Positions 7,220-10,670 of a stretch of 20,435 nt of DNA are shown piece by piece. Origin of the DNA: an uncultured Pseudomonadota bacterium. Its GTDB lineage: Bacteria > Pseudomonadota > Gammaproteobacteria > Burkholderiales > SG8-41. The first letter of the stretch is position 1; each line of letters opens with the position of its first letter. Location of the stretch: assembly GCA_946885605.1 (NCBI GenBank), contig CAMPGR010000062.1, positions 1 to 20,435 on the forward strand. The letters run 5' to 3'. The translations under genes were made by a program, and so were the position numbers. Below the pieces are notes generated by a model. That model made no database searches. It saw only the letters and a list, made by a program, of their open reading frames with translations, and had not been told where the DNA came from.

Positions 7220-7441
7220 TCACGGCCGCGGAGTGCGTTCACGGGACGGACGCTCGCGCGATGCGGCGCCCGCGCGATCATCATGCTGCTGCGGCTGGGG
7301 ACGGCTCGCGACCGGGGCCTCCGGCTGCGATTCCCTCGATCCCCGCTCGTACCACATGGCGAGTGCTGCGAGCGCCAGGACCACCACCGCAATCGCCCAT
7401 TTCCAGCTCCGACTTCGACGCCGCAGCTTCATTTCGCTCAC
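7220..7441 (-). CDS. Small single-pass membrane protein, translationally coupled to FrnE
   Basis: A 73-residue hypothetical protein. A basic N-terminus (KLRRRSRSWKW) is followed by one hydrophobic segment of about 18 residues (AIAVVVLALAALAMWYE) and a charged Arg/Pro/Gln-rich tail, so it is probably inserted with the N-terminus inside and the tail in the periplasm. The GTG start at 7441 overlaps the TGA of the FrnE gene by 4 bases (GTGA); an ATG at 7432 is the alternative. The overlap favours a real, coupled gene, but the low-complexity tail and lack of any recognised family leave it uncertain. Confidence 0.45.
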   Translation of the reverse strand: MSEMKLRRRSRSWKWAIAVVVLALAALAMWYERGSRESQPEAPVASRPQPQQHDDRAGAASRERPSRERTPRP

Positions 7442-8091
7442 GAGGGACGGGAAACATCCTTTTCGGCCTGCACCATCGCATCGAGCAACGTGTCCGGCTC
7501 CTGCGCGCCCGACACGCCTATTCTTCGATTGAAGATGAAAAACGGCACGCCGCCTATGCCGGCGTTCCGCGCTTCGATGTCGGCGCGCGCGATGAGGTCG
7601 CGGTCGGCATCGCTCGCGAGATACGCTGCGAGGGCCTCGCGCTCGAACCCGGCGCGCGCGCCGATATCGGCGAGCACCGCGGGATCGGCGAGGTTCGCGC
7701 CCTCGATGAAATAGGCGCGAAATAGCTCTTCGGCCATTTCGTCCTGGCGGCCCCGCTGATCGGCATAGTGCATGACCCGATGCGCATTGACGGTGTTGGG
7801 CTGGACCGCGATGCGGTCGAACGCGAACGGAATGCCGACGCTCGCGCCGGCCGCGGCGACGTTCGCGTAACTCCGGTTGGGATTGCCGAACTTGCGCCGC
7901 AAGTACTCACTGCGCGCAATACCCTCTTCGGGGAGCCCGGGGTTCAGCTGAAACGGAAGCCAGCGCACGGCCGGCGTGGCGGCATCGGGGAAGCGCTCGC
8001 GGTAGCGCTCGAGTGCGGTTGCGAGGCGGCGCTTACCGATGTAGCACCAGGGTCAGACCACGTCGGAAACGATATCGATCTTGAGGCTCAT
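7438..8091 (-). CDS. FrnE-like DsbA-family oxidoreductase with in-frame TGA at the active-site Cys (candidate selenoprotein)
   Basis: 217 codons of a FrnE-like protein, a cytosolic DsbA-family thioredoxin-fold enzyme with a helical insert. The ATG at 8091 has GGAG 7 nt upstream. Translation runs MSLKIDIVSDVV, then TGA as codon 13, then PWCYIGKRRLATALERYRE and on without any other stop or frameshift to 7438. Family members have CPWC at this place, so the TGA sits exactly on the catalytic N-terminal cysteine. Cys16 is kept and is the only cysteine in the whole product. The cis-proline loop IGGVPFFIFNRR near residue 185 is intact. The best reading is a selenocysteine UPWC motif; TGC-to-TGA nonsense mutation or a sequence error is the alternative. 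Starting inside the gene (GTG 7968) would remove the first strand and active site. The decayed acyl-CoA ligase lies 88 nt upstream, and a small membrane protein overlaps the end. Confidence 0.8.
8028..8048 (-). promoter_or_regulatory. Stem-loop just downstream of the FrnE TGA (possible SECIS-like element)
   Basis: In the mRNA, bases +5 to +25 after the UGA can fold as GGUGC + UAC, loop AUCG, GUA + bulged A + GCGCC: five lower pairs (one G-U), three upper pairs. The loop begins 13 nt after the UGA. It is placed as a bacterial SECIS would be, but the loop does not start with G and is slightly close to the UGA. These bases also encode conserved residues, so the fold may be coincidence. Confidence 0.25.
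8053..8055 (-). other. In-frame TGA at the CxxC position (candidate Sec codon)
   Basis: Codon 13 of the FrnE-like frame. Flanks are GACGTGGTC before and CCCTGGTGC after, giving VV-TGA-PWC where the family has VVCPWC. Cysteine codon TGC differs by one base. Confidence 0.6.
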
Positions 8092-8179
8092 CGCTTGACT
8101 CCGGAAAAAAGGTCATGCGGGTGCGGCACTTACATGATAGCAGCAATAGGGGGGCGCTCATATTGCGCAGTTCGTGCTG

Positions 8180-8996
8180 CTACGTGCCGGTGGGCCAGTC
8201 CCGGTAGCGCTCGCGCAGCACGGACTTGAGCACCTTGCCGGTGGAAGTCCGCGGCATCTCGGACACGAAGACAAAACCGTCGGGCAGCCAGTATCGCGCG
8301 AAGCGCGGCGCCAGGTGCTCCCGTAGCTCCGCCTCGTTTGCAGCGACGCCTGCTTTCGTGACAATCACCGCGAGCGGGCGTTCATCGTGATGCCGTCCCA
8401 CGCCGCGATGCCCGCCGCGCCCATCGCGCGAACTTCGAAAAATGGCAGCGGAAGCCCCTGTTTCGCGCGGATCGCATACTGTTCGTCAGGCGCAAGCGTC
8501 TCCAGTTCACGCTTGAGGCAGTTCACCGTGCCGACAGGCGAGGTCTCCGTCATGCCCCATCCATGCACGACGCGCAGGCCGAGCCGGTCGTAGCCACGAA
8601 TCATTGCTTCCGACGCCGCCGCGCCGCCCACAACCATGCGCATGCCGCGCGCAAGCCGCCACCGCTCGGGCGCCGCCTCGAGCGACTGGAGGATATTCAT
8701 CCATATCGTCGGCACGCCGGCCGTGAGGGTGACCTGCTCCGGCTGGTAGAGATCGAGCAGGCTCTCCGCGTCCAGATGCGGGCCGGGAAGAACCAGTTTC
8801 GAGCCCATCATCACTGCCGTGTACGGAATGCCCCACGCATTGACATGGAACATCGGCACGACGGGGCACACACATCCGCATGTGCGACACCCAGGTAGTC
8901 CACCGTCGCGGTCGCAAGTGAATGCAAGACGATCGAGCGATGCGAATAGACGACTCCCTTCGGCCGCCCGGTCGTCCCCGATGAATAGCACAACGT
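8180..8996 (-). pseudogene. Acyl-CoA ligase (AMP-dependent synthetase) remnant
   Basis: Three pieces of one AMP-binding fatty-acyl-CoA ligase in three frames. Piece one starts at the phosphate loop, [20 protein letters not shown], immediately after the acyl-CoA dehydrogenase stop, so roughly the first 180 residues usual for the family are missing. A frame change at the (CA)4 tract 8867-8874 leads to piece two, [20 protein letters not shown] through GWGMTETSPVGT to FFEVRAMGAAGIAAWDG. At about 8390-8400 the sequence jumps to piece three, HHDERPLAVIVTK to STGKVLKSVLRERYRDW, skipping the region that holds the GWFRTGD and hinge motifs in relatives (about 85-90 residues by comparison). With three lesions it cannot make an active enzyme. 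It is the downstream end of the leftward catabolic cluster. Confidence 0.85.
8867..8874. repeat. (CA)4 dinucleotide tract at a frameshift
   Basis: On the minus strand this reads TGTGTGTG inside the ligase remnant. Removing one 2-base unit gives GATGTGTGCCCCGTCGTG, i.e. DVCPVV joined in frame to PMFHVNAW. That is the expected outcome of slippage having added one unit. Confidence 0.6.
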
Positions 8997-10670
8997 CTAG
9001 AGCGGCTCGTCGCGCGCGAGCATGCGCGCCTCGTCCGGATCGATGCGGGCGAGCATGTTCGCGCCGTGCAACGCGTAGCGTTTTGCGGCGGCGAGCGCAT
9101 GGCGGCTCTGCTCGTGATCCAGGGACCACTGTGCATGCCGTGCGAGCAGCGCCAGCGAGAGCGATCGCCCCAGCGTGAGCGCGACGCGCCGGGCGCCCGC
9201 TTCGAGCAGTGCCGGTTCTTTGCCACCGCGCTCGAGCACGTCCTGCACCTGCTCCACCGTCTGCTCCAGCCGCGCCGACATTCTGACGAGATCCGGTTCG
9301 CGCAAGCCCTGCAGCAGAAAACCGAGCTCGCGCCGCAGTGCCTGGAGCGCACCGGACTGCTGCGCCACACGCACCACGTCGAGCGACAGCACGTTCGTCG
9401 TCCCCTCCCAGATGGGCAGCACCTGCGCATCACGCAGCAGCAACGGGATGCCGGTATCCTCGACGTAGCCCGCGCCGCCGAACGCTTCCACGGCTTCGGA
9501 GAGGACCGCCACCGCCTGCTTCCCGGTCGTCAGCTTGCCGGTGGGCGTGAGCAGACGCAGCAACTCGGCCTGCGTTGCACTTGCACGTCCTGCTTCCACG
9601 CGGCCCAGCAGTTCCACGACGAAGAAGGCGAGATGCAGCGCCCCGGCGAACTCCGCCTGGAGCGCAGCGAGCGTATCGAGGTGCAGCGGCTTATCCGCAA
9701 GCGGCGCGCCGAAGGCGAAGCGCTTCCGCGCATAATCGCGCGCGAGCGCGATGCCGCGCCGCATGAGCGCGACCGCGCTGACGCTGTTCCAGATGCGCGT
9801 CAAGTTGAGGACGGGCGTGATGTTCCTCACGCCGTCCGTCGTCCCGTATACGAGCTGCGCCACCGTGCCTTGGAGCGTCAGCTCGGCAGTCGGGACCTTG
9901 CGTGTTCCAAGCTTGTCCTTGAGGCGGTTTACGGTAATGCCGTTCGATTCTCCGCGCGCATTCCGTGTTTCAACATAGAAAAGCGCCAGCCCTTTGCCGC
10001 CGGGCGGGTTGCCTTCCGGCCGTGCAAGGGTCAAGGCCATCTGCGAACCGATCGCCGAGGTGAACCACTTGCGGCCATAGAGCCGCCACTCCCCCTCTTC
10101 CTCGCAGGCAATGGTTTCGGTCAACCCCACGTCGGACCCGCCGGCCGTCTCGGTCATCCACTGGCCGCTCGTCCAGAATTCCCCGGGGTCGCGCGAAAGG
10201 AGATGCGGGAGCGCGCGACCGGCGAGGGCACGGTTTCCGGCGGAGGCAAGGAGGCACGCCGCGCCATCGGTCATCGCGAGCGGGCAGGCGTACATGTCCG
10301 TGGACGGCGCAAAGAGATAGACGAGCGCGAACTGCTGCACCCGCGAGTACGTGCCGTGCTTCCTTTCGTGGGCAACGGCGACCAGCCCGTGCTCGGCGGC
10401 GATGCGCTGGGCCGTCTGCCAGAGCGGCGAAACCTCGATCCGGTCGATGCGATTTCCCCACGCGTCCCACTGCGTGAGCACGGGCTCATGTACGCGATCG
10501 GCAAGCTGCATGCGGTAGAGCTCGCCGCCTGCCAGCTCGCCCATCTCGATGAGACCCGGCTCAATATCCGCGAGCACCTCCGGCGGGAGCGCGTGTGCGA
10601 GGTAGGAACGCAGCGCGCCGTCGTCGAGGTACTGGTTGCCGAGCTGCGGCGGCTGCTGGACAAAGGGCAT
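8997..10670 (-). CDS. AidB-like acyl-CoA dehydrogenase
   Basis: About 557 residues, the length of the AidB branch of flavin-dependent acyl-CoA dehydrogenases. Visible features are the N-terminal AidB-type segment with QPPQLGNQYLDDGALRSYL, the FAD-binding loop WMTETAGGSDVGLTET, the WFTSA segment, EAFGGAGYVEDTGIPLLLRD and PIWEGTTNVLSLDVVR near the dehydrogenase C-terminus, followed by a helical tail. E. coli AidB binds DNA and has only weak isovaleryl-CoA dehydrogenase activity, so catalysis is plausible but not certain here. ATG 10670 was taken; a TTG two codons earlier (10676) is possible, and no Shine-Dalgarno site is seen. An AT-rich patch (TTAATATT) lies just before the start. The stop codon touches the ligase remnant, so the deletion that removed the ligase 5' part may have ended here. 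It sits downstream of MmgE/PrpD. Confidence 0.85.
   Translation of the reverse strand: MPFVQQPPQLGNQYLDDGALRSYLAHALPPEVLADIEPGLIEMGELAGGELYRMQLADRVHEPVLTQWDAWGNRIDRIEVSPLWQTAQRIAAEHGLVAVAHERKHGTYSRVQQFALVYLFAPSTDMYACPLAMTDGAACLLASAGNRALAGRALPHLLSRDPGEFWTSGQWMTETAGGSDVGLTETIACEEEGEWRLYGRKWFTSAIGSQMALTLARPEGNPPGGKGLALFYVETRNARGESNGITVNRLKDKLGTRKVPTAELTLQGTVAQLVYGTTDGVRNITPVLNLTRIWNSVSAVALMRRGIALARDYARKRFAFGAPLADKPLHLDTLAALQAEFAGALHLAFFVVELLGRVEAGRASATQAELLRLLTPTGKLTTGKQAVAVLSEAVEAFGGAGYVEDTGIPLLLRDAQVLPIWEGTTNVLSLDVVRVAQQSGALQALRRELGFLLQGLREPDLVRMSARLEQTVEQVQDVLERGGKEPALLEAGARRVALTLGRSLSLALLARHAQWSLDHEQSRHALAAAKRYALHGANMLARIDPDEARMLARDEPL

Follow-up and report, generated by a model that had tools for sequence, protein, structure and literature searches.

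A FrnE-like DsbA gene with TGA at its active site in a betaproteobacterial clade, and a candidate SECIS element split across the downstream coding sequence

What does a TGA codon mean when it stands where a thiol oxidoreductase should have its first catalytic cysteine? The question is raised by a minus-strand gene in contig CAMPGR010000062.1 of an uncultured Pseudomonadota bacterium, of which the 20,435 nucleotides analysed are called the window (Table 1). Translated with TGA read as selenocysteine (Sec, U), the frame gave 217 residues with one internal TGA at codon 13, in the context MSLKIDIVSDVV-U-PWCYIGKRR, at the first Cys of the FrnE/DsbA CPWC motif; the initial annotation had described frame and position correctly. 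It had also claimed a Shine-Dalgarno site for the ATG, which is there as GGAG, and had called Cys16 the only cysteine of the product, as the translation bears out. The protein matched the Pfam DSBA domain (PF01323; E=6.6e-40, 137.4 bits with the cut-off at 25.6) and, by sequence comparison, a solved FrnE (E=2.6e-37), whose CPWC falls opposite residues 13-16; no NCBIfam model reached its cut-off for the window protein. Likeness to Deinococcus FrnE (PDB 5cnw and others) extended over residues 3-209, including CPWCYIGKRR, but FrnE has Cys where Sec is proposed here. FrnE, to whose group we take COG2761 to correspond, has a further cysteine motif near its C-terminus; as Cys16 is the sole cysteine of the window protein, that motif is absent and the protein is classed as FrnE-like only.

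Table 1. Positions in the window of the proposed selenoprotein gene, its candidate RNA helices and a neighbouring remnant
Feature	Position	Strand	Remarks
FrnE-like DsbA selenoprotein gene (proposed)	7438..8091	-	217 residues with U13; stop TGA 7440-7438
TGA in frame at codon 13, proposed to encode the Sec of UPWC	8053..8055	-	
GGAG, Shine-Dalgarno-like	8099..8102	-	7 nt before ATG 8091; read directly
GTG, annotated start of the 176-aa truncated protein	7966..7968	-	inside H2 loop
H1 5' strand, CAUCGG	8036..8041	-	begins 11 nt after UGA
H1 3' strand, CCGAUG	7983..7988	-	codons for P-D plus next G
H2 hairpin, GCCGGC-CGUGC-GCUGGC	7959..7975	-	GU in loop 7969-7965; -9.0 kcal/mol; proposed SelB-binding core
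AMP-binding (acyl-CoA) ligase remnant	8365..9129	-	Pfam match to profile positions 208-354 of 384

Database proteins of the TGA clade described below are cut off past the active site. The window's own protein (P0002, in 11 contigs) begins at the internal GTG and has 176 aa, as do six further variants 98-99% identical to it, which bears out the truncation foreseen in the initial annotation; among the best 120 database matches listed, the N-terminal CPWC region was missing in 93 and present in 27. The GTG at the annotated start is conserved, as might be expected if translation restarted there to give a protein without its active site, or if the UGA were read as some other amino acid, with no Sec in either case. 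Against this, the residues before the TGA are conserved (of ten, 8 to 9 were unchanged in the nearest relatives and 7 in L163) and Cys stands at the TGA position in the nearest functional relatives. No Shine-Dalgarno-like stretch was seen by eye before GTG 7968 in the alignment, and the TGA tracks SelA (see below); we regard restart or readthrough without Sec as highly improbable.

Homologues with TGA at codon 13, which the initial annotation had suggested seeking, were found as 71 further distinct genes. In a scan of named genomes, the 12 closest loci (54-68% identity) all had TGA at this codon; 11 were titled Betaproteobacteria, beta proteobacterium or Burkholderiales and one (L005) 'bacterium' only. 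TGC or TGT was found at the codon in the 11 more distant loci examined, out of 68 others fetched. A sample from the same order gave a match in 67 of 399 genomes, 16 of which carried the TGA gene, and in the nearest family (around L002) 65 of 74 genomes had a match, with TGA contained in 66/66 matches, a count in which rows flagged as having two TGAs may include the terminal stop. The TGA gene most similar to that of the window (78% identity) was in G422. Altogether, the 72 distinct TGA genes comprised the 66 family matches, a truncated gene in G012, those of four genomes outside the L002-family list (G028, G078, G123 and G162) and that of the window. Across the phylum, 165 of 398 sampled genomes had a match, and among the matches listed none had an active-site TGA except in G002. 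The TGA of G613 was rejected as a Sec codon, being the terminal stop of a gene whose active-site codon is TGC. In G028, a TGA copy (L116) at 63% identity coexists with a Cys copy at 50%.

In a FastTree phylogeny, the 72 TGA genes formed a single clade (support 0.995) with none of 91 Cys homologues inside it. Whether close relatives have TGC or TGT here had been raised as a possible objection: none did among the DNA loci of the clade, where TGA stood at codon 13 in all 71 relatives with DNA collected, but when eight full-length database proteins were added to the tree, four Cys proteins (P0055, P0061, P0078 and P0087) nested in the clade (support 0.972). These four, known as proteins only, are apparent Sec-to-Cys reversions.

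That the gene is dying, with its TGA a nonsense mutation or an error of sequencing, would be in keeping with its surroundings, since the neighbouring ligase is a remnant, correctly named a pseudogene at the outset and covered by Pfam over only part of the profile. It would not account for the same codon in 71 other genes, nor for the 98-99% identical variants from other contigs that are truncated alike. Comparison of the window with its five closest TGA relatives gave a dN of 0.14-0.20 against a dS of 0.74-1.27 after the TGA, which points to purifying selection on this part of the gene and indicates that decay of the ligase does not extend to it. A dying gene is thus the least credible explanation, with next to no probability in our judgement.

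The window yielded neither a tRNA gene nor an Rfam family at gathering score. Selenocysteine machinery was assessed in the genomes of relatives. SelA was found in 66 of 70 TGA genomes (62/66 of the family and 4/4 of the others) versus 22 of 60 genomes in which only a Cys homologue was matched (21/51 from the order sample and 1/9 others), an association with Fisher p=6e-13 if kinship is ignored. The four TGA genomes in which SelA was not found were G005, G419, G430 and G432; as the genomes are mostly metagenome bins, absences may be gaps. Among the first 12 TGA genomes (G001-G012), tRNA-Sec scored >72 bits in 11 (not G001), SelB exceeded its cut-off in 10 (with fragments in G006 and none in G005), SelA was present in 11 (not G005) and SelD in all 12, each SelD with an internal TGA in GGG-U-GCK. 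Of the 11 Cys genomes compared, 4 had a tRNA-Sec of at least 65 bits, 3 a SelB over cut-off and 3 a SelA. TGA was present in both DsbA and SelD in 12/12 of the first TGA genomes and in FdhA in only 3/12, and the Sec trait thus persists without a TGA-containing FdhA in most of them.

The TGA clade, purifying selection and co-occurrence with sel genes in relatives all support the initial suggestion of a candidate selenoprotein. Very probably the gene encodes one, in a betaproteobacterial clade within the DsbA-like (UxxC) selenoproteins already known, and these comparisons make actual Sec insertion at UGA 8055-8053 almost certain. Extracts from the literature describe a DsbA-like selenoprotein with PF01323/COG2761 and UxxC, 'DsbA-like protein form 1', in the Sargasso Sea in 2005 and in later lists (PMC1088965, PMC2398784, PMC9312934, PMC13188914). 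The window protein shares the PF01323 domain and the UxxC motif with it, a likeness by description and not by sequence, and belongs to a betaproteobacterial clade; the published DsbA-like selenoproteins are reported to have their SECIS immediately downstream of the TGA, unlike the arrangement proposed here. Neither this TGA clade nor a bridged bacterial SECIS was reported in the portions of the literature consulted. In 2006, Betaproteobacteria were credited with FdhA as their only selenoprotein, according to an extract of PMC1794560; DsbA and SelD would widen the betaproteobacterial selenoproteome beyond it.

How the UGA would be recoded is the second question raised by this locus. The bSECIS model requires a loop of 3-9 nt with G in its first two positions, a stem of 4-16 bp and an energy of <=-7.5 kcal/mol, and places the loop 16-37 nt after the UGA (PMC13188914, in extract). 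No model hairpin was found at 16-37 nt in the window and none was shared there by the 72 TGA genes, 15 of which had any hairpin in that range at <=-5 kcal/mol and 6 at <=-7.5 kcal/mol. Frozen synonymous codons, seen by position, were joined by RNAalifold on 27 genes into two helices further downstream, H1 and H2, which were found from these sequences and then tested. Counting the U of the UGA as column 0, H1 pairs columns 14-19 with 67-72, and H2 pairs columns 80-85 with 91-96 around the loop CGUGC, which lies 83 nt from the UGA. This RNA element had not been foreseen in the initial annotation.

When 179 codons were ranked by their synonymous identity across the 72 genes, the top seven were codons 23, 29, 30, 28, 4, 5 and 22, all of which lie within H1 or H2. 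In synonymous-codon shuffles, which like the other shuffle tests ignore kinship, 325+-6 of 432 H1 pairs formed versus 414 observed, and 357+-7 H2 pairs versus 421 observed. Folds of the UGA and the 34 codons after it had a mean z against shuffles of -1.44 in TGA genes (n=72) versus -0.37 in Cys genes (n=75; p=5e-9). At homologous columns, H1 was complete (5 core pairs) in 71/72 TGA versus 3/91 Cys genes, H2 had at least 5 of its 6 pairs in 72/72 versus 9/91, and both occurred together in 71/72 versus 2/91. The two Cys genes with both helices were L122 and L127, and H2 with a partial H1 was present in L123 and L124, Cys genes in sister position; some of the scaffold may therefore derive from the protein's own sequence or be older than Sec. 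Among the apparent revertants, PAVRW residues coded by H2 are gone from P0061 (PEVNW) and P0087 (PALHW), and the residues of the remaining two (PTVRW, PAVRW) are still compatible with H2. A covariance model was rejected as a means of telling TGA from Cys genes: it did not separate them, because coding homology alone scores.

Covariation differed between the two helices. Taken together, they had 13 cells changed on both sides, a number reached by 0/500 shuffles, and H2 alone had 12 (0/500). Counted otherwise, the signal of H2 was weaker, with 2 doubly changed pairs (reached by 31/500 shuffles) and pair types reached by 464/500; its fourth pair is broken in 9 of 70 rows. H1 alone had 1 doubly changed cell, reached by 25/500 shuffles, and two slid versions of H1 had a higher covariation score but only 30-36% of cells paired, versus 99%. 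With covariation near absent, the case for H1 is mainly its synonymous freezing, which by itself is no proof of pairing. RNAalifold on all 72 genes drew H2 and a local stem, and not H1. Both helices were kept in L011 despite the protein changes D to N, A to T and R to S. In predicted ensembles of the 72 genes, the mean probability was 0.90 for H1 and 0.86 for H2, and omission of the first 14 nt, as if a ribosome held them, lowered these to 0.79 and 0.71; the corresponding values for the window were 0.97 and 0.99, and 0.94 and 0.65.

Of the two helices, H2 is the one that resembles known SECIS cores. In the window, its 5-nt loop CGUGC, 6-bp stem and -9.0 kcal/mol lie within the bSECIS rules for loop, stem and energy, and like canonical bSECIS elements it has G at loop position 2, followed by U; its distance of 83 nt and the long-range helix in between are unlike them. 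The loop conforms to NGUNN in 72/72 TGA genes (CGUGC in 70, CGUGA in 1 and GGUGC in 1). The SelD genes of the same genomes (L139-L151, from G001-G012 and G016) have a strongly conserved, SECIS-like hairpin, CC(A/G)GC-G(U/G)U-GCUG in 13/13, which shares with H2 the stem CC(A/G)GC...GCUG and the GU in the loop; unlike H2, it lies at a normal distance, its loop separated from the UGA by 20 nt, and lacks a bridging helix. In the three FdhA genes the loop reads AGUCU. A core like that of H2 is not unique: 132 matches were counted in 2.6 Mb on both strands. Since H1 opens 11 nt after the UGA and loops out 59 nt, the effective distance from UGA to H2 loop would be 11+13=24 nt. In 15 genes that are one codon shorter between the helices, the distance from UGA to loop is 3 nt less.

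The gene may instead be a selenoprotein gene with an ordinary, poorly conserved SECIS near the UGA, such as one built on GGUGCU/AAGCGC (columns 8-12 with 22-26), in which case H1 and H2 would serve as an enhancer, a ribosome-slowing pseudoknot or an mRNA-stability structure. This local stem pairs in 94-100% of the 72 TGA genes and could form a pseudoknot with H1, and bacterial SECIS elements are often mutually dissimilar, as stated in an extract of PMC13188914. However, the stem is coded by WC(F/Y)IGKR residues that are common to Cys homologues, no model hairpin at 16-37 nt is common to the TGA genes, and codon shuffles comparing TGA with Cys genes gave p of 0.23, 0.046, 0.23, 0.71 and 0.92 over codons +1 to +9, +10, +12, +14 and +17, respectively, the lowest of the five being 0.046. 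Folding of four segments near the UGA, each 46-81 nt long, gave z-scores of -0.44 to 0.48, and RNAalifold on 19 sequences of 61 nt drew only a residue-imposed 5-bp stem. On balance, a SECIS close to the UGA appears unlikely, if more credible than the explanations without Sec.

We therefore favour a Sec-containing FrnE-type DsbA whose SECIS is split into a bridge, H1, and an element bound by SelB, H2; as a whole this reading is probable, judging from comparative sequence analysis. Under it, a FrnE-type DsbA thiol oxidoreductase would have its N-terminal catalytic Cys replaced by Sec (UPWC), decoded from the UGA via SelA, SelB, tRNA-Sec and SelD. By looping out the intervening nucleotides, H1 would bring H2 effectively within reach of the UGA, where SelB might attach to the loop of H2 and hand over Sec-tRNA in the way usual for bacterial Sec insertion, and the product could use a U13-C16 selenenylsulfide in thiol-disulfide exchange. 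What we infer to be new is the far-off, bridged SECIS. It seems reasonably likely to represent a new bacterial class, in which the SelB-binding hairpin lies 83 nt off, a helix loops out 59 coding nt and, within the Sec clade, PD and PAVRW are constrained by the fold of the RNA. According to extracts of PMC13188914 and PMC12013277, there are bacterial selenoprotein genes that do not fit the SECIS model, and there may be distinct classes; the 72 natural variants described here, with Cys genes as their outgroup, define one candidate.

The codon before the UGA (region 8052-8058 of the window, and 71 relatives) is also unusual. It was GTT in 48 of the 72 TGA genes, GTC in 23, GTA in 1 and GTG in none, though GTG is the commonest Val codon elsewhere (485 of 908 downstream Val codons). 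The preference for GTT and GTC is perhaps a context effect on recoding.

The neighbourhood of the gene looks ordinary and partly syntenic, and the ligase remnant looks incidental. The decayed ligase sits between an AidB-like acyl-CoA dehydrogenase gene and the Sec gene. As judged by eye from N-termini, TctB-, TctA- and Bug-type genes precede the Sec gene in L007, and in L010 and L011 they do so together with an MmgE/PrpD gene, as in the window, where MmgE/PrpD has a Pfam match. By the same inspection of N-termini, the window's alpha/beta hydrolase lies on the other side of the Sec gene in L007 and L010.
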